Under the pieces are notes generated by a model. That model did not search any database and was not told the DNA's origin. It saw nothing but the letters and a program-made list of their open reading frames with translations. Both the position numbers and the translations under genes were made by a program. Of a stretch of DNA of 64,000 bases, positions 34,136 to 42,643 are shown one piece after another; within the stretch, counting starts at the first letter, position 1; every line of letters begins with the position of its first letter. The DNA is from Bradyrhizobium sp. BR13661 (lineage in GTDB: Bacteria; Pseudomonadota; Alphaproteobacteria; Rhizobiales; Xanthobacteraceae): assembly GCF_029892425.1 (NCBI RefSeq), contig NZ_JARXWB010000009.1, forward strand, positions 62,001 to 126,000, in the 5' to 3' direction.

Positions 34136-35578
34136 TCAGGCGGCGCGCGAGGCCTTTCGCTGCATCGCGGCGGCGATCTTCAGGTCTTCGACAAAGCGCT
34201 GATATTCCAGCGCCTTCGCTTCGGGATCGGGTAGCCGCAGCAGATAGGACGGGTGCACCGTCACCAGAGCCTTGCGCCCGTCGGGCAGGTCTATGAGCCG
34301 GCCGCGGGTCTTGCCCACAGGCGTGATCTTGCCAAACACGCTTTGCGCCGCGGTCGCGCCCATCGCCACGATGAGCTCGGGCTGGATTGCCGAAACTTCC
34401 CGCTCGTACCATTGCCGGCACGCTTTGATCTCCGGCGTCGCCGGTTTCTGATGCAGGCGGATTTTTCCGCGCGGCACGAATTTGAAGTGCTTGACGGCAT
34501 TGGTGACGTAGACCTTCTCACGATTGACGCCGGCTTCGGCGAGCGCGCGATCGAGCATCTGGCCGGCCGGACCGACGAAGGGATGGCCGGCGAGGTCTTC
34601 CTTGTCGCCGGGCTGCTCGCCGACCAGCATGATGGTGGCGTTGTCAGGGCCTTCGCCGAACACGGTTTGCGTCGCGTCCTTGTAGAGCGGGCAGGCGCGG
34701 CAATGCGCGGCTTCCTCGCGAAGCGCGTCGAGATCGTTGGTTGCGGGTCTGCGTATCATCGGAGCCTCCGGCCGCCTCTGAGGCTTGTGCGGATCGGTTG
34801 CGGCGTTGGCGATCATAGCACCGGTCATGCGCTCGGCGTCCTCGATTAAGGGCTTAATGATCGAGGCCTCGGGCAGGTTCCTCCAGTATTTCTTCGGCAT
34901 CTCCGTCTGCATCGCCTTCACCTTCAAGCGCGCCGGGTTGAAGATGCTGGCGTAATAGCTCCGCCAGGTTTCCTCCAGCCGGTCTTCGCCCGGAGCCTCG
35001 CTCTTGCTCACGCCCGGTGTGAACGAGAGCGCGTGGCCGTCCCAATGCGCGCAGAGATCCGGCGTCAGGATCGACCAGGGCATGTCGGCAAAGCGTTTTG
35101 CGAAGAACGGCGCGGCGAGCTCGACGATGTGATGCTCCGGCTCGAACCAGGCGACGTAATGCGCTGATCGCTCGCGGCCGATCTCGCGAAAGCGCACGAA
35201 GGCGTGCATCTTGTGCTCGTCGCGATGAACCGCGCGCGCCATCGCCGTGACCTGCCCAACATCGGAGTCGGTCGCGACCTCGATGAGGTCGTGGTTGTCT
35301 CTCAATCGCCAGAGCAGGCGATAGAGGATTGCAAAGCGCTCGGGATCGCGATGCAGGATTGCCGATTTTGCGAGGTCGACGAATTTGCCTGATACGCTGA
35401 AGGTGCCCTCGTTGACCTCGAGGATCGGAGACGGCGCGGGCGGTGCGAACAAATCGGCTTCGCCGCCTTGCACGGTCCAGGTGACATCGGTGGGCTGCAC
35501 ATGACCAAGCACGAGCGTGCGTGCGGCTGTGCGCCAGCCGTCGAAATCGGTTTCGGTGTCGAGAATGATGTACTGCAT
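34136..35578 (-). CDS. DUF4130-UdgX fusion, uracil-DNA-binding protein
   Basis: This is a 480-residue two-domain protein. Residues 1 to about 250 are the DUF4130/TIGR03915 domain (YRLLWRLRDNHDL, HKMHAFVRFRE, HYVAWFEPEHHIVELAAPFF). Residues about 285-475 are a family 4/UdgX uracil-DNA glycosylase fold: CRACPLY (Cys293, Cys296), GEQPGDKEDLAGHPF at 320-334, VTVHPSYLLR at 439-448 and Cys387. The UdgX R-loop is present as GKIRLHQKP with His376, the residue that in Mycobacterium UdgX forms a covalent bond to the ribose after uracil release. His364 stands where ordinary family 4 enzymes have a cysteine. It overlaps its radical SAM partner by one base. Confidence 0.9.
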   Translation of the reverse strand: MQYIILDTETDFDGWRTAARTLVLGHVQPTDVTWTVQGGEADLFAPPAPSPILEVNEGTFSVSGKFVDLAKSAILHRDPERFAILYRLLWRLRDNHDLIEVATDSDVGQVTAMARAVHRDEHKMHAFVRFREIGRERSAHYVAWFEPEHHIVELAAPFFAKRFADMPWSILTPDLCAHWDGHALSFTPGVSKSEAPGEDRLEETWRSYYASIFNPARLKVKAMQTEMPKKYWRNLPEASIIKPLIEDAERMTGAMIANAATDPHKPQRRPEAPMIRRPATNDLDALREEAAHCRACPLYKDATQTVFGEGPDNATIMLVGEQPGDKEDLAGHPFVGPAGQMLDRALAEAGVNREKVYVTNAVKHFKFVPRGKIRLHQKPATPEIKACRQWYEREVSAIQPELIVAMGATAAQSVFGKITPVGKTRGRLIDLPDGRKALVTVHPSYLLRLPDPEAKALEYQRFVEDLKIAAAMQRKASRAA

Positions 35579-36813
35579 CAGAAGCCAAACCCCAATTGTG
35601 TTGCCTTCGGCTTGAACCGTTCGATCAGGCCGGCGGCATCGAGACGATGCGGCGATGGACGGTGATCGCTGAGGATGATGAACGGCAGCGCCTTGTGCTT
35701 GGGCACATGCAGCCGCGCGAGATCGGAGAGGCGGATCGTGGTGGTGCGCCGCGTTGCGATGATGCGTTCGACTGCCCTGGTGCCGAAGCCCGGCACGCGC
35801 AGCAGCTCCTCGCGGCTGGCGCGGTTGACGTCGAGGGGGAAGCGGTCGCGATGGCGGAGCGCCCAGGCGAGTTTCGGGTCGATGTCGAGCGGCAGCATCG
35901 CGCTGTCTTCGACGATCTCGCCGACATCGAAGCCGTAGAACCGCATCAGCCAGTCGGCCTGATAGAGCCGGTGCTCGCGCAGCAGTGGCGGCTGCACCAG
36001 AGGCAATGCGCGGCTGGCGTCAGGGATCGGGCTGAAGGCGGAGTAATAGACGCGTCGCAGCCGGTAGGAGCCGTAGAGATTGGCGCTGGTGTGGAGGATG
36101 GTGTGATCGGACGCCGCGTCGGCGCCCACGATCATCTGCGTGCTTTGTCCCGCCGGCGCGAAACGCTGCGGTTTTGCCTTTGTTTTTGCCGTGCGGTCTT
36201 CCTCGGCCTCGTCCAGCTTCAGCCGCAACCGGCCCATGGTGCGGCGGATCGCACGGACGTCTTTCTCCGGCGCGAATTGTTGCAGGCTCGCCGCTTCGGG
36301 CATTTCGATGTTGATGGAGAGACGATCGGCATATTTGCCGGCTTCCGCGATCAGCGCGTCATCGGCCTCGGGAATGGTCTTGAGATGGATGTAGCCGCGG
36401 AAGTGATGCTCCTCGCGCAGTTTTCGCGCGACGCTGACGACTTGCTCCATGGTGTAGTCGGGGCTGCGAATGATGCCGGAGGAAAGGAACAGGCCTTCGA
36501 TGTAATTGCGCCGGTAGAAATCGAGCGTCAGCTTGACCACCTCGTTGATGGTGAAGCGGGCGCGCGGTATGTTCGAGGAGGCGCGGTTGACGCAATAAAG
36601 GCAGTCGTAATTGCAGGCGTTGGTGAGCAGCACCTTGAGCAGCGAGATGCAGCGTCCGTCCGGCGCGTAGGAATGGCAGATGCCCATGCCAGGCGCGGTC
36701 GAGCCCATGCCCTTGCCGTCGCTGGAATCCCGCTTCTCGGTGCCGCTGGAAGCGCAGGAGGCGTCGTATTTGGCGGCGTCAGCCAGGATCTCCAGCTTGC
36801 GTTGTACGTCCAT
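35578..36813 (-). CDS. Putative DNA modification/repair radical SAM protein with C-terminal HhH (TIGR03916 type)
   Basis: This is a 411-residue radical SAM protein. The cluster motif is C67-x3-C71-x2-C74 (TNACNYDCLYCVNRASS), with a CHSYAPDGRC segment just before it. The C-terminus (about 335-370) has a helix-hairpin-helix DNA-binding motif, VNRASREELLRVPGFGTRAVERI. The family always travels with DUF4130/UDG proteins and is thought to act on damaged or modified DNA, with the reaction unknown. The ATG at 36813 has AGGGA seven bases upstream. Its stop overlaps the UdgX fusion start (TGATG). The promoter faces imuA and holds a LexA box. Confidence 0.9.
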   Translation of the reverse strand: MDVQRKLEILADAAKYDASCASSGTEKRDSSDGKGMGSTAPGMGICHSYAPDGRCISLLKVLLTNACNYDCLYCVNRASSNIPRARFTINEVVKLTLDFYRRNYIEGLFLSSGIIRSPDYTMEQVVSVARKLREEHHFRGYIHLKTIPEADDALIAEAGKYADRLSINIEMPEAASLQQFAPEKDVRAIRRTMGRLRLKLDEAEEDRTAKTKAKPQRFAPAGQSTQMIVGADAASDHTILHTSANLYGSYRLRRVYYSAFSPIPDASRALPLVQPPLLREHRLYQADWLMRFYGFDVGEIVEDSAMLPLDIDPKLAWALRHRDRFPLDVNRASREELLRVPGFGTRAVERIIATRRTTTIRLSDLARLHVPKHKALPFIILSDHRPSPHRLDAAGLIERFKPKATQLGFGF

Positions 36814-36863
36814 TATTGAATCCCTTTGATTCCGCTGGTGAATCCGACGGAGCGCCAATTCGG

Positions 36864-36892
36864 TTGACTCCCAGGGCACCGTTAGCTTTATA
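36864..36892 (+). promoter_or_regulatory. Probable sigma-70 promoter of imuA
   Basis: TTGACT at 36864-36869 and TTTATA at 36887-36892 are separated by 17 bases and point toward imuA. The predicted start site, about 36899, falls inside the LexA box, the usual place for repression. Confidence 0.6.
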
Positions 36893-36895
36893 TTA

Positions 36896-36910
36896 GAACA
36901 TATCATGAAC
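36896..36910. promoter_or_regulatory. LexA (SOS) box shared by two divergent DNA-repair operons
   Basis: GAAC-ATATCAT-GAAC matches the alphaproteobacterial LexA site (direct repeat GAAC-N7-GAAC or GTTC-N7-GTTC) exactly. It lies 83 bases upstream of the radical SAM start and 66 bases upstream of imuA. On the minus strand TAATAT, a possible -10, follows it directly, so one LexA dimer could block both promoters. Confidence 0.85.
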
Positions 36911-36976
36911 AAATGAGCCAGCCGCTGGTTCTCTTTTTGAGAGCTATCGGCAATCACCTCTGAAGGAGCGGCGAGC

Positions 36977-37780
36977 ATGAGCGCACGCATGAGCGCGCTT
37001 GCGACCTTGCGCAGCCAGATCGAACGGATCGAGACGGCGGAGGTCGTGCACGATCACGACCGCGTCGCGCTCGGTCACGGCGAAGTGGACCACGCCTTGA
37101 AAGGCGGGCTCGCACGCGCGGCGATCCACGAGGTGTTTTGTGAGGGGCGCCAGGGGGCGGCCGCGACCGGCTTTGTCACCGGGCTTGCGGGCCGCGTGAC
37201 GGCGCAGCGGCCGCTGCTGTGGGTGCGGCAGGATTTCTCGGAACCCGAGACCGGCGCGCTGTCGATGAGCGGGCTCGCCGAATTCGGCCTCGATCCGCGC
37301 CTGATGGTGATGGTGCGCGCGGCCGATGTCGAGAGCGCGCTGCGTACCTCGGCCGATGCGCTCGCTTGCGATGCGCTCGGCGCCGTCGTGCTGGAGTTCT
37401 GGGGCGAGACACGCCAGTTCGATCTGGTGGCGAGCCGTAAGCTGACGCTGGCGGCGCAATCGTCCGGCGTCACTGGCCTCTTGCTGCGGATGGCAGCGCA
37501 GCCGCTGCCCTCGACTGCGGAAACACGATGGATGTTGCGCGCGGCGCATTCGCCGCCGGATTCGGCATCAATGCCTGTGGCGCCTTGGGGCGTCTGGGGC
37601 GCACCGCGCTTCGATGTCGAGCTTTTGCGTAATCGTCATGGCCCGTGCGGCCGGTGGATCATGGAATGGAAATGTGATGAGTGCCAGTTCAGTGAACCGT
37701 CGGCGTATCCTCAGCCTGTGGCTGCCGCGCCTGCCCATCGACCGGATCCAGCGGTTCCTCAACAGCGCCGGGCTGGGTAG
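36977..37780 (+). CDS. imuA: ImuA, SulA/RecA-like mutasome component
   Basis: This 267-residue member of the ImuA family has a RecA-like core without a proper Walker A: ALKGGLARAAIHEVF, then GRVTAQRPLLWVRQD and DALGAVVLEFWGETRQFDLVASRKLTLAAQSSGVTGLLLR. It is the first gene of the SOS-induced imuA-imuB-dnaE2 cassette, and AAGGAG lies about 8 bases upstream of the start. ImuA helps the error-prone polymerase DnaE2 in damage-induced mutagenesis. The 3' end overlaps imuB by 104 bases. Confidence 0.9.
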   Translation: MSARMSALATLRSQIERIETAEVVHDHDRVALGHGEVDHALKGGLARAAIHEVFCEGRQGAAATGFVTGLAGRVTAQRPLLWVRQDFSEPETGALSMSGLAEFGLDPRLMVMVRAADVESALRTSADALACDALGAVVLEFWGETRQFDLVASRKLTLAAQSSGVTGLLLRMAAQPLPSTAETRWMLRAAHSPPDSASMPVAPWGVWGAPRFDVELLRNRHGPCGRWIMEWKCDECQFSEPSAYPQPVAAAPAHRPDPAVPQQRRAG

Positions 37781-39272
37781 GAATAACAATGGTCCCAGCA
37801 TTATCGTCATCAAGGAGAACAATGCACTGGTGATCCATGCGCTGGATGAAGCCGCCGAGCGCCTCGGTCTGCATATTGGTCAGCCGCTCGCGAATGCCCG
37901 GGCGATGTGTCCGGATTTAAAAGTGTTCGACGCCGATGTCGTGGCCGACGCGAAGACGCTCAGCGACATCGCCGATTGGTGCGACCGCTTCACGCCTCTG
38001 GTGGCGCTCGATCCGCCGCACGGGCTGTTTCTCGACATCACCGGCTGCGCGCATCTGTTTGGCGGCGAAGCCGCGCTGTTGCGGACGCTGGTTCGCGCGC
38101 TGGGGCGCCAGGGCTTTGCCGTCAGCGCGGCGATTGCCGGCACCTCGGTCTGCGCGCGCACGCTGACGCGGCAGGCGTCCGGCACCATCGTCGCCGATGG
38201 CGAGGAGGCGGCGGCGATCGACCGGTTTCCGGTGTCCGCGCTCGGTGCGAACGAGGCGATCACCGCCGGCCTGCGCCGTGCCGGGCTGAAAACCATCGGC
38301 GATGTCGCCTCGCGCAACCCGAGTGAAATCACGGCGCGGTTCGGCGCGCGATTCTCCACGCTGCTTGCGCATGCGCTGGGGCAAGGCGATGCGCCGATCA
38401 GCCCGCGCAAGCCGCTGCCCGACTACATCGTCGAAAAACGCTTCGCCGAGCCGATCGCGACCGACACCATAATCGCGATGACGCTGTCGCGGCTGGCGGA
38501 CACATTGATCGCGTCCATGGAGAAGCAGGGCAAGGGCGCGCGCCGCCTGGAAGCCGCGTTCTTCCGCACCGACGGCGTGGTGCGCGCGATCATGGTCGAG
38601 ACCGGCCGTCCGGTGACGCAAAGCAAAGTCATCGACCGGCTGTTCCGCGAGCGTCTTGACGCGCTTGCCGACCCCTTCGATCCCGGCTTTGGTTTCGACA
38701 TGGTGCGGCTGTCGGCGAGCCGCACCGAGATCGTGGTGCAGGAGCAGCGCGATCTCGATGCCCATGTCCACGACAATGACGAGCTCGCCGCGCTGATCGA
38801 CCGCATCGCCGCACGCATCGGCGGAAAGCGCGTCGTCGTGCACCTGCCGCAGGATACGCACATCCCCGAGCAGGCGGTGCTGGCCGCGCCCGCGCAGCAT
38901 CATCTCGCGGCAGCCATGCAGGCCGAATGGCCTGATCGTGCCGAGAGTGAGCCGCCGCTGCGCCCCTTAAGGCTGTTCGATAAGCCGGAGCCGGTCACCG
39001 TGCCGTTCGCGACCGTGCCTGACGGCCCGCCGCATCAATTCACCTGGCGCCGCGCGAAACATGCGGTGGTGCGGGTGGAGGGGCCTGAGCGCATCGCGAT
39101 GGAATGGTGGCGGCAGGACGGCAAGCAGCTGACGCGGGATTATTTCCGCATCGAGGATGCCGAGGGCCTGCGCTTCTGGATTTTTCGCGACGGTCTTTAC
39201 GAGGGAGAGGTATTCGACGCCGACGGCAAGTCCGCTCCGCCCCGCTGGTATGTGCACGGTCTCTTCGCATGA
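37677..39272 (+). CDS. imuB: ImuB, inactive Y-family polymerase-like mutasome hub
   Basis: This 531-residue Y-family polymerase-like protein lacks the catalytic acids. The N-terminal strand reads RRILSLWLPRLPIDRI where active enzymes have a metal-binding Asp, and ALDPPHGLFLDITG stands where SIDEAFLD would be. It is therefore likely non-catalytic, as in other ImuB proteins, and bridges the sliding clamp, ImuA and DnaE2. A later helix-hairpin-helix region (RRAGLKTIGDVASRNPSEITARFG) is typical. The ATG at 37677 is preceded by GGAA. The stop overlaps the dnaE2 ATG by 4 bases. Confidence 0.92.
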   Translation: MSASSVNRRRILSLWLPRLPIDRIQRFLNSAGLGRNNNGPSIIVIKENNALVIHALDEAAERLGLHIGQPLANARAMCPDLKVFDADVVADAKTLSDIADWCDRFTPLVALDPPHGLFLDITGCAHLFGGEAALLRTLVRALGRQGFAVSAAIAGTSVCARTLTRQASGTIVADGEEAAAIDRFPVSALGANEAITAGLRRAGLKTIGDVASRNPSEITARFGARFSTLLAHALGQGDAPISPRKPLPDYIVEKRFAEPIATDTIIAMTLSRLADTLIASMEKQGKGARRLEAAFFRTDGVVRAIMVETGRPVTQSKVIDRLFRERLDALADPFDPGFGFDMVRLSASRTEIVVQEQRDLDAHVHDNDELAALIDRIAARIGGKRVVVHLPQDTHIPEQAVLAAPAQHHLAAAMQAEWPDRAESEPPLRPLRLFDKPEPVTVPFATVPDGPPHQFTWRRAKHAVVRVEGPERIAMEWWRQDGKQLTRDYFRIEDAEGLRFWIFRDGLYEGEVFDADGKSAPPRWYVHGLFA

Positions 39273-42200
39273 TGACGCCTGCTTATGCCGAGATCGGGAT
39301 CACCACCAATTTCTCCTTCCTGCGCGGCGGCTCTGATCCGCGCGCCTATGTGCATCAGGCCAGCAAGCTCGGCATTCCCGTGATCGGGATTGCCGATCAC
39401 AACTCGCTCGCCGGCGTGGTGCGGGCCTGGAAGGAGCTCGACAATGACAAGGTGCTGCATAAACCTAAATTGCTGGTCGGCGCGCGCATCGTCTTCATCG
39501 ACGGCACGCCCGATATCTTCGTCTATCCGCGCGACCGCGCCGCCTATGGCCGGCTGTGCCAGCTGCTGACCCAGGGTAAACGCGGCGATGACATCACGCG
39601 GATCGAGAAAGGTGAGTGCCATCTCAGCTTCGCCGATCTGCTGGAATTTTCGGAAGGCCAGCTCCTGGTCCTGACGCTGCCGCATCGCTTCGATGATGCG
39701 CAGGTGCTGGATGTGCTTGCAAAACTAAAATCAAGCCGCGCCGACGGCGTGTGGCTTGCGGCGAGCCTGGTGTATCGCGGCGACGACCGCCGCCGCCTGG
39801 CGCGGCTCGACGATCTCGCCGCCAAGGCAGGAGTGCCGCTGCTTGCGACCAACGAGGTGCTCTACCACGATCCCGGTCGCCGCCCGCTTCAGGACGTGCT
39901 CACCTGTATCCGGGAAAAGACCACGATCGAGGCGGTCGGGCGCAAGCTGGAAGCCAATGCCGAGCGCTTCCTGAAGACGCCTCGCGAAATGTCCCGGCTG
40001 TTTCGCGATGTCCCTGAAGCGATCGCGGAGACCATGCGCTTTGCGGGAATGATCGAGTTCTCCCTCGACCAGCTCAGATATCAATATCCTGATGAGCCGG
40101 TGCCGCCGGGCAAGACCGCGCAGGGGCATCTGGAGGATCTGACCTGGGCGGGCGTCGACACATATTTCGGCGGCAAGATCGACGACAAGCTGCGCGCCAC
40201 GCTCGAGAAGGAGCTCGCGCTGATATCAGAGCTGAAATACGCGCATTACTTCCTCACCGTGCATGACATCGTCCATTACGCGCGCAGCCAGAACATTCTG
40301 TGCCAGGGGCGTGGATCGGCAGCGAATTCGGCCGTCTGCTACGTGCTCGGCATCACCTCGGTCGATCCGACCAAGGTTGATCTCCTGTTCGAGCGTTTCA
40401 TCTCCAAGGAGCGGCTGGAGCCGCCTGACATCGACGTCGATTTCGAGCATTCGCGGCGCGAGGAGGTGATGCAATATGTCTATCGCCGATACGGCCGCCA
40501 CCGTGCTGCGATCATCGCCACCATCATCCATTATCGTCCGCGCAGCGCCATCCGCGATGTCGGCAAGGCGCTGGGCCTGACCGAGGACGTCACCGCCGCG
40601 CTCGCCGACACCGTCTGGGGCAGCTGGGGCAAGGGCCTCAACGACATGCAGGTCCGGCAGGCCGGGCTCGATCCCCAAAATCCCATGATCAACCTCGCGG
40701 TCGAGCTGGCCACCGAGCTGATCGAATTCCCGCGCCATCTCTCCCAGCATGTCGGCGGCTATGTGCTGACGCAGGACCGGCTCGACACCTACGTGCCGAT
40801 CGGCAATGCCGCGATGGACGACCGCACTTTCATCGAATGGGACAAGGACGACGTCGATGCACTCAACATGATGAAGGTCGATGTGCTTGCGCTCGGCATG
40901 CTGACCTGCATCAGGAAGTGTTTTGATCTGATCGCGGATCACAAAGGGAAACGCTACGTGTTGGCGAGCGTCCCGCAGGACGATCCCAAGGTTTACGACA
41001 TGCTGTGCGCTGGGGAGTCGCTCGGCGTCTTCCAGGTCGAGAGCCGCGCCCAGATGAACATGCTTCCGCGGCTGAAGCCGCGGACCTTCTACGATCTCGT
41101 CATCGAAGTCGCGATCGTGCGGCCGGGGCCGATCCAGGGCGACATGGTGCATCCTTATCTGCGCCGACGGAACGGCCTGGAGAAGGTGGCCTATCCCTCG
41201 CCATCATCAGAGCATGGTCCCGCGGACGAGCTCTACAAGGTGCTGCACAAGACCAAGGGCGTGCCCCTGTTCCAGGAGCAGGCGATGCGCATCGCAATCG
41301 AGGCGGCAAAATTCACTCCCGAGGAGGCCAACGGCCTGCGCCGCTCGATGGCGACCTTCCGCAATGTCGGCACCATCGGCCAATACGAGGAGAAGCTGAT
41401 CGGCAACATGGTCGCGCGCGGCTACGATGCCAATTTCGCCAGAAGCTGCTTTGACCAGATCAAGGGCTTTGGCTCCTACGGCTTCCCGGAGAGCCATGCC
41501 GCGAGCTTTGCACAGCTCGTCTACATCTCCTCATGGCTGAAATATCATCACCCGGATGCATTCTGCTGCAGCCTTTTGAACTCGCAGCCAATGGGCTTTT
41601 ACGCCCCGGCACAGATCGTCGGCGACGCCCGCAAGAACGGTGTCGAGGTGCGCGAGATCGATGTCTCCTACAGCTTTGCGCAGAACACGCTGGAGAATAC
41701 GGACGGAAGATATTGCGCAGTCCGTCTCGGCTTTCGCCAGATCGACGGCTTTCACTGGCTGGATGAGGATGAGGAAGAACTCAAGAGGCAGCAGGCGGAG
41801 AGGCAAGGAAAAGAATATGTCGGTCAGAAGGACTGGGCCGATCTTATCATCGATGCCCGCAACCTCGGTCCCTTCACCTCGCTCGAAGATTTTGCCCGCG
41901 ACACCGGCCTGCCCAAGCGTGCGCTGATCCTGCTGGCGGATGCCGACGCATTCCGCTCGCTCGGGCTCGACCGCCGCGAGGCGCTGTGGCAGGTGCGGCG
42001 GCTGCCTGATGATGTGGCGCTGCCGCTGTTCGAAGCGGCCACCGCACGCGAACAGCCGGACGAGCACGCCAAGCCATTGCCCGTGATGCCGCGCGCCGAA
42101 CAGGTCGTTGCCGATTACCAGACCATCCGGCTGTCGCTTAAAGGCCATCCGATGGAATTTTTGCGCGAGATGTTTTCGCGCGAGCGGATCGTCGCCTGCA

Positions 42201-42643
42201 AGGAGATCAGCCATGAGAACGAGCGGCGCCGCGTCCGTTGCGCCGGCGTGGTGCTGGTGCGGCAGCGGCCGGGCAGCGCCAGCGGCGTCGTGTTCATGAC
42301 GCTGGAGGACGAAACCGGCATCGCCAATGTCGTGGTGTGGCCCAAGGTCATGGAGCAGTACCGCAAGGAGGTGATGGGCGCCCGCCTCATCGAGGTTCAG
42401 GGCTATATCCAGAGCAGCCCAGAGAAGGTGACGCATCTGATCGCGCAGCGGATGATCGACCGTTCGCACGATCTGGTCGGACTCGCCAATGATGCCCTGA
42501 GCCGCAAGCCTGCGGTGCCGGTAGGCGCCACCGGGGTCGAGCCGCTCAACGACGATCGCCGCGACCACGCCGATATGCCGGCGCAAAAAATCCGCCACCC
42601 CCGCAACGTCCGCATCCTGCCGCCGTCGCGGGATTTCCATTGA
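39269..42643 (+). CDS. dnaE2: Error-prone DNA polymerase III alpha subunit DnaE2 (ImuC)
   Basis: This 1124-residue C-family polymerase has an N-terminal PHP domain (YAEIGITTNFSFLRGGSDP, IADHNSLAGVVRAW), the catalytic palm with PPDIDVDFEHSRREEV, fingers with QLVYISSWLKYHHP and a C-terminal OB fold (RCAGVVLVRQRPGSASGVVFMTLEDETG). The length suits the DnaE2 rather than the DnaE1 subfamily. It performs translesion synthesis under SOS control with ImuA and ImuB. Start and stop coupling (ATGA) with imuB sets the start. Confidence 0.95.
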   Translation: MMTPAYAEIGITTNFSFLRGGSDPRAYVHQASKLGIPVIGIADHNSLAGVVRAWKELDNDKVLHKPKLLVGARIVFIDGTPDIFVYPRDRAAYGRLCQLLTQGKRGDDITRIEKGECHLSFADLLEFSEGQLLVLTLPHRFDDAQVLDVLAKLKSSRADGVWLAASLVYRGDDRRRLARLDDLAAKAGVPLLATNEVLYHDPGRRPLQDVLTCIREKTTIEAVGRKLEANAERFLKTPREMSRLFRDVPEAIAETMRFAGMIEFSLDQLRYQYPDEPVPPGKTAQGHLEDLTWAGVDTYFGGKIDDKLRATLEKELALISELKYAHYFLTVHDIVHYARSQNILCQGRGSAANSAVCYVLGITSVDPTKVDLLFERFISKERLEPPDIDVDFEHSRREEVMQYVYRRYGRHRAAIIATIIHYRPRSAIRDVGKALGLTEDVTAALADTVWGSWGKGLNDMQVRQAGLDPQNPMINLAVELATELIEFPRHLSQHVGGYVLTQDRLDTYVPIGNAAMDDRTFIEWDKDDVDALNMMKVDVLALGMLTCIRKCFDLIADHKGKRYVLASVPQDDPKVYDMLCAGESLGVFQVESRAQMNMLPRLKPRTFYDLVIEVAIVRPGPIQGDMVHPYLRRRNGLEKVAYPSPSSEHGPADELYKVLHKTKGVPLFQEQAMRIAIEAAKFTPEEANGLRRSMATFRNVGTIGQYEEKLIGNMVARGYDANFARSCFDQIKGFGSYGFPESHAASFAQLVYISSWLKYHHPDAFCCSLLNSQPMGFYAPAQIVGDARKNGVEVREIDVSYSFAQNTLENTDGRYCAVRLGFRQIDGFHWLDEDEEELKRQQAERQGKEYVGQKDWADLIIDARNLGPFTSLEDFARDTGLPKRALILLADADAFRSLGLDRREALWQVRRLPDDVALPLFEAATAREQPDEHAKPLPVMPRAEQVVADYQTIRLSLKGHPMEFLREMFSRERIVACKEISHENERRRVRCAGVVLVRQRPGSASGVVFMTLEDETGIANVVVWPKVMEQYRKEVMGARLIEVQGYIQSSPEKVTHLIAQRMIDRSHDLVGLANDALSRKPAVPVGATGVEPLNDDRRDHADMPAQKIRHPRNVRILPPSRDFH

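Follow-up and report, generated by a model that had tools for sequence, protein, structure and literature searches.

In alphaproteobacteria a GAAC-type motif serves LexA, according to the available part of PMC6473078, and LexA-dependent induction of imuA in Caulobacter is described in the accessible text of PMC12907096. For the UDG-based two-gene system COG1573-COG4277, the available part of PMC8565304 predicts SOS control of the operon in Bacteroidetes and refers to earlier reports, by Erill and co-workers (2016) and Paes da Rocha (2008), that the system is SOS-regulated in Verrucomicrobia and Alphaproteobacteria. A figure legend on SOS neighbourhoods, in the part of PMC3765255 at hand, connects DUF4130 with genes for radical SAM proteins and uracil-DNA glycosylases. 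As for UdgX, the accessible portion of PMC10359453 reports that H109 of the Mycobacterium smegmatis protein bonds covalently to the abasic site, describes the physiological role of UdgX as largely unknown and supplies the residue roles used below in the motif test. The same portion of PMC10359453 states that UdgX activity has been shown in Bradyrhizobium diazoefficiens, and the radical SAM-UdgX pair considered here is to that extent better known than the original prediction, which called it uncharacterised, had allowed.

The divergent locus and its LexA-type box

The stretch analysed, referred to throughout as the window, comprises 64,000 nucleotides of Bradyrhizobium sp. BR13661. Within it imuA-imuB-dnaE2 lie to the right of a short intergenic gap, and a radical SAM gene and a UdgX fusion gene lie to the left in divergent orientation. 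The features are as follows.

34136-35578, minus strand: fusion of TIGR03915/DUF4130 with UdgX (TIGR03914), by family matches and motifs
35578-36813, minus strand: radical SAM protein TIGR03916, 562.7 bits against a cut-off of 343.5
36814-36976: intergenic gap of 163 bases between the radical SAM ATG (36813, minus strand) and the imuA ATG (36977)
36821-36827, minus strand: probable ribosome-binding site AAAGGGA of the radical SAM gene, a sequence reading
36864-36869, plus strand: -35 element TTGACT of the imuA promoter, kept with or without the radical SAM gene
36887-36894, plus strand: -10 region of the imuA promoter, with TTTATA (36887-36892) at spacer 17 and TATATT at spacer 19; best permissive match here in relatives
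36890-36895, minus strand: TAATAT abutting the box, proposed as a -10 element, not supported as a radical SAM-specific one
36896-36910, plus strand: LexA-type operator GAACATATCATGAAC, exact GAAC-N7-GAAC, like the box type at lexA and recA and kept in alignment A1 of relatives
36977-37780, plus strand: imuA, by weak family match, gene order and relatives
37674-39272, plus strand: imuB, Y-family polymerase-like; start approximate, an ORF opening at 37614
39272-42643, plus strand: dnaE2, error-prone polymerase, family match of 1558 bits against a cut-off of 939

The gene names given from sequence alone hold by family matches, with one qualification: ImuA matches NF033429 at 37 bits, under the curated cut-off of 150, and owes its name to gene order and relatives and not to a passed family test. 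Members of TIGR03916, which we take to be the family otherwise called COG4277, carry an invariant CX3CX2C motif in all 49 aligned proteins, and the BR13661 protein conforms in both score and motif. Each of the 56 fusion proteins aligned has both a TIGR03915 and a TIGR03914 match, and in every one GEQPG, the arginine and histidine of the R-loop and the histidine and arginine of the HPS motif are invariant; the BR13661 fusion scores over the TIGR03914 cut-off and has each of these UdgX features, its R-loop histidine aligning with H109 of M. smegmatis UdgX. The predicted structure of the radical SAM protein (pLDDT 83.1, pTM 0.82) resembled general radical SAM folds, with a best E-value of 1.6e-7 and TM-scores up to 0.61, and no hint of a substrate appeared among the 50 best matches in the PDB; its profile matched none of the sequences of solved structures, and the family models assign this partner no reaction. 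For the fusion protein (pLDDT 90.0, pTM 0.54) UDG-type structures dominated the 50 best PDB matches, among which the fold of the DUF4130 domain was not singled out.

The box conforms exactly to the GAAC-N7-GAAC direct repeat of alphaproteobacterial LexA operators, and its sequence, its coordinates and its place in the gap between the two gene groups agree with what had been predicted. Matches to this loose motif number 3 in the window against 1.7 expected, and genome-wide the reversed pattern, with 243 matches, is commoner than the motif itself, with 199; as this is no excess, the genome-wide count was dropped as an argument for function. The strict form GAACAWAN4GAAC, which includes the box, occurs 19 times in the 8.94 Mb genome against 2 matches for reversed controls, and by our arithmetic about 0.0004 such sites would be expected by chance in the 163-base gap.

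The genome encodes LexA, with a loose-form box GAACATGTATCGAAC about 95 nt upstream of lexA, and a strict box GAACATATTGCGAAC lies upstream of recA. The first ORFs at 10 of the other 18 strict sites include recA, Ku, SRAP, DUF5131 and a PA0069-family radical SAM gene, the remainder of those scanned being a sugar kinase, an ATPase and ORFs without a match, and the genome appears to use the GAAC-type LexA dialect. Two of these sites deserve mention on their own account. A strict LexA-type box stands about 120-140 nt before the Ku gene (L240:450-1379, minus strand) and would place end joining in the SOS regulon. The SRAP gene (L249:743-1405, minus strand) has one about 95-110 nt upstream; SRAP proteins can act at abasic sites, and SRAP and UdgX, two families with this capacity, may be co-induced.

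On the imuA side the promoter is found at the positions first described, TTGACT, a 17-base spacer and TTTATA running into the box. TTGACT lies within 45 nt before the box in all 39 loci with a divergent radical SAM gene that were read (32 distinct sequences; L047, L052, L147 and L150 of the 43 such loci were left out) and in 39 of 40 imuA loci lacking that gene, the exception, G547, having no box; these 40 were hand-picked, mostly as high-scoring, from 158 such genomes. Under permissive scoring the best promoter match adjoins the box in 35 of 39 relatives, and on the imuA strand the best scores stand at percentile 96 to 100 of shuffles in the 13 rows shown; under a stricter scan of the window neither strand of this region gave a promoter. 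The operator overlaps or abuts a promoter on the imuA side only, as judged by the permissive scoring, and by sequence and position the predicted LexA operator of the imuA-imuB-dnaE2 promoter is the box at 36896-36910. Two further patterns lie in the gap: a terminator-like hairpin in the imuA leader directly after the box (36915-36931), whose T-run, judged by eye, is apparently not conserved in A1, and a GATTC/GAATC pattern, noticed by eye, which flanks the ribosome-binding site of the radical SAM gene and is conserved in that alignment.

A box probably shared by two divergent operons

We scanned 120 alphaproteobacterial radical SAM (TIGR03916) loci, counting the gene of the window (L119) once, for LexA-type boxes. 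These comprised 53 of 80 related loci, selected by record title, 18 loci over the TIGR03916 cut-off from an even sample of the class, and 49 from a family sample; four loci were excluded, L040 because of a transposase-like ORF and the others because too little sequence lay upstream. Where no imuA or imuB match lay close upstream (up to 1.5 kb, or about 350 nt for the 18 short stretches L211-L228), a locus was taken as non-adjacent, and an exact box within 150 nt was present in 65 of 71 such loci against 12 of 2525 control tiles, at similar rates in the class (15/16), family (20/22) and related-loci (30/33) samples. With one duplicate removed the count is 64 of 70 (Fisher p about 3e-108, not corrected for relatedness, near relatives recurring in the set). 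The loci without an exact box are L112, L220, L229, L050, L066 and L104, of which L050, L104 and, as judged by eye, L220 have a near-box. A box was present in all 43 loci divergent from imuA and in both loci (L100 and L113) where the radical SAM gene follows imuB on the same strand.

The scan for LexA sites before TIGR03916 genes that the original prediction proposed thus came out in its favour, and across alphaproteobacteria the comparison of genomes lends strong support to placing the radical SAM-UdgX pair under LexA. As a proposal, SOS control of the pair is not new: it is largely in print already and mostly known in kind, judging from the available part of PMC8565304.

The surroundings of the gene vary. 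In L100 (2417-11236) and L113, imuB is followed by a same-strand LexA-type box, the radical SAM gene and the UdgX gene, with dnaE2 next in L100, and the pair stands inside the mutasome cluster. Genome G443 has a second radical SAM copy (L229, 2301-4099) without a UdgX match or a box, beside a deaminase-family ORF, and in G396 (L230, 362-542) the radical SAM gene is reduced to codons 1-30 and 390-411, next to an intact imuA promoter and box. At L040 (1-489), where an IS1595-type zinc-ribbon ORF sits just upstream of an intact radical SAM gene, no LexA box is left. Among 296 genomes of the family, 87 have the radical SAM gene, which lies within 1 kb of imuA in 60; by contig and place it is not adjacent in four, and 23 lay outside the adjacency check. 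The imuA gene is found in 85 of the 87 radical SAM-positive genomes and in 158 of the 209 negative ones, a comparison not corrected for relatedness.

The geometry of the box differs between the two arrangements. At non-adjacent loci the distance from private box to radical SAM start is mostly 24-61 nt, and GAAC reads toward the gene in 63 of 65 (one box per locus counted; in L088 the nearer box reads the opposite way), as against mostly 93-123 nt and the opposite sense in 41 of 43 divergent loci. In the window the distance is 97 nt and the sense opposite, which is imuA's geometry. A second box on the radical SAM side is missing in 42 of the 43 divergent loci, the exception being L052 (Methylopila) with three boxes. 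Given this loss, the simplest account is that the private radical SAM box became redundant beside the imuA box, and we consider it probable, at roughly 70%, that the box at 36896-36910 also governs the radical SAM-UdgX pair, LexA control of which is itself likely.

The promoter through which this control would act on the radical SAM side is less apparent. The TAATAT proposed as its -10 element is indeed present on the minus strand at 36890-36895, but it abuts the box in 21 of 39 loci without the radical SAM gene and in 25 of 39 with it; being kept about equally where the gene is absent, it is no evidence of a radical SAM promoter and was dropped as such. No conserved sigma-70-type promoter was found on the radical SAM strand, where the best scores are scattered and stand at percentile 51-98 of shuffles in the 13 rows shown, nor did permissive scoring across relatives find any other conserved promoter in the gap. 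With no conserved promoter on the second strand, we infer the sharing of the box and do not count it among demonstrated operators of two divergent promoters.

The main rival is escape of the pair from LexA control: the box would serve imuA-imuB-dnaE2 only, and in this clade the pair, having lost its private box, would be expressed constitutively or from an unrecognised promoter. It would fit the orientation and spacing of the box, which are those of imuA, the weak promoter scores on the radical SAM side, the presence of a like promoter and box, often with TAATAT, at loci without the radical SAM gene, and L040, where the gene is intact beside the zinc-ribbon ORF with the box gone. Most non-adjacent relatives nonetheless keep private boxes, including 20 of 22 in the family sample, the gap has yielded no other conserved promoter, and the gap of L147, with its single box, is about 77 bases long, which leaves little room for two separate promoters; on balance we regard the escape as unlikely, roughly a one-in-four reading. 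Use of the box by a regulator other than LexA is very improbable, since like boxes precede the lexA, recA, Ku and SRAP genes of this genome and the GAAC-type motif is the one used for LexA in alphaproteobacteria, as stated in the available part of PMC6473078. Finally, the lack of excess of the loose motif in window and genome might suggest a functionless chance match, but with the strict form at 19 against 2 and box and upstream TTGACT together in 39/39 radical SAM-linked and 39/40 radical SAM-less imuA promoters its probability is negligible.

Operators before radical SAM genes in other lineages

In betaproteobacterial radical SAM loci CTGTN8ACAG is exact in 9 of 14 and present with at most one mismatch in 13 of 14, against 0 of 782 tiles, and in four of these it overlaps the assigned start codon; betaproteobacteria appear to keep a LexA box of another dialect before this gene. 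The same motif occurs in one of three Verrucomicrobia loci. Among ten gammaproteobacterial loci it was exact in none and present with one mismatch in L093, L072 being almost without upstream sequence, and no LexA1-type box (TTAG...) was found before the radical SAM gene in nine loci. The lack of known LexA boxes in these loci led us to a dyad, GTCTCAN5TGAGAC, which occurs with identical arms in five of the ten, from Luteimonas, Xanthomonas and Stenotrophomonas.

We then turned to 79 genomes of the Xanthomonadaceae, the family of seed genome G585, which was included. The dyad occurs in 55 of them, at 103 sites, and the reversed control gave none. Of 24 radical SAM loci in the sampled genomes, 15 have it exactly, 22 with at most one mismatch and 23 with at most two, against 0 of 419 tiles; it lies 38-59 nt upstream of the radical SAM start, or 75 nt in the two-mismatch locus L328, and L332 is without it. 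The dyad loci are L067, L068, L097, L101, L110, L254-L262, L272-L301 and L328-L351. Thirty-nine were read for the gene that follows (nine from five genomes and one each from 30 genomes): 16 are DEAH helicases, nine radical SAM genes (five of them the seed), three distant helicase-like genes (26-28% identity), two dnaB, one uvrA, one recA and seven other or unassigned. The helicase family TIGR03817, which we take to be MrfA-like, was matched in the three fragments scanned, below the full-length cut-off, and the other helicases were assigned by 73-90% identity. The seven others include mraZ, a Fic-type gene and a CRISPR gene, csy1, which may be a chance case.

The 23 full-length lexA genes recovered from 13 of the 15 genomes searched have a TTAG-type box upstream in 11 cases, GTGTACAAATGTACAC in six and neither in six, and a dyad with fewer than two mismatches is absent upstream of all 23. 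From its sequence, the dyad is neither the LexA1 nor the LexA2 box, and a candidate regulator other than these LexA proteins would be the simplest reading, a LexA paralogue being possible. Three lexA genes (L302, L303, L326) are preceded by a two-mismatch dyad, against 0 of 198 tiles, and some lexA genes may answer to the dyad and belong to the same regulon. Counting also the three-mismatch forms in L313, L314 and L324, such degenerate dyads lie 70-117 nt upstream of lexA. The dyad marks a candidate separate damage regulon, and to the wider proposition, that the pair carries whichever damage operator its host uses (GAACN7GAAC, CTGTN8ACAG or the dyad), that the dyad stands for a regulon outside LexA and that UdgX would be a general damage-response protein, we give even odds, having started a shade higher and come down because three lexA genes carry the two-mismatch dyad. 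The dyad is the newest element of the analysis, not found described in the literature searched, from which subscription journals were mostly missing; if confirmed, it would indicate that the Xanthomonadaceae have a damage regulon beyond their known LexA boxes.

Proposed action of the locus and comparison with described systems

LexA bound at the box would cover the -10 and start region of imuA, and upon DNA damage RecA-stimulated cleavage of LexA would release the imuA promoter. This operator, the only one found in the gap of loci with the divergent arrangement (about 165-200 bases), most likely serves the radical SAM-UdgX pair too, which would be co-repressed with imuA. UdgX, as in M. smegmatis, would excise uracil and stay covalently on the abasic site via its R-loop histidine, and the covalent protein could protect such sites during the copying of damaged DNA by DnaE2. 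The radical SAM enzyme would presumably act on the same DNA, and the pair probably acts with the mutasome. The recurrence of damage-type operators in several dialects, with two arrangements relative to imuAB-dnaE2, beside it and inside it, would point to a job of the pair in the damage response, and the same placement makes a test of the pair beside DnaE2 mutagenesis direct.

Compared with M. smegmatis UdgX (PDB 6ail and relatives), the BR13661 protein has 47-49% identity over its C-terminal domain and the GEQPG, R-loop histidine and HPS motif in common, but it is fused to an N-terminal DUF4130/TIGR03915 and reads KIRLH, not KRRIH, in the R-loop. With PimuA of Caulobacter and the alphaproteobacterial imuA-imuB-dnaE2 cassette the locus shares a LexA-type box at the imuA promoter, the difference being that in BR13661 a radical SAM-UdgX pair diverges from this promoter region. 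The SOS-regulated COG1573-COG4277 operon, as presented in the available part of PMC8565304, likewise has a UDG gene and its partner under a damage regulator, whereas in BR13661 a single box lies between two divergent operons.
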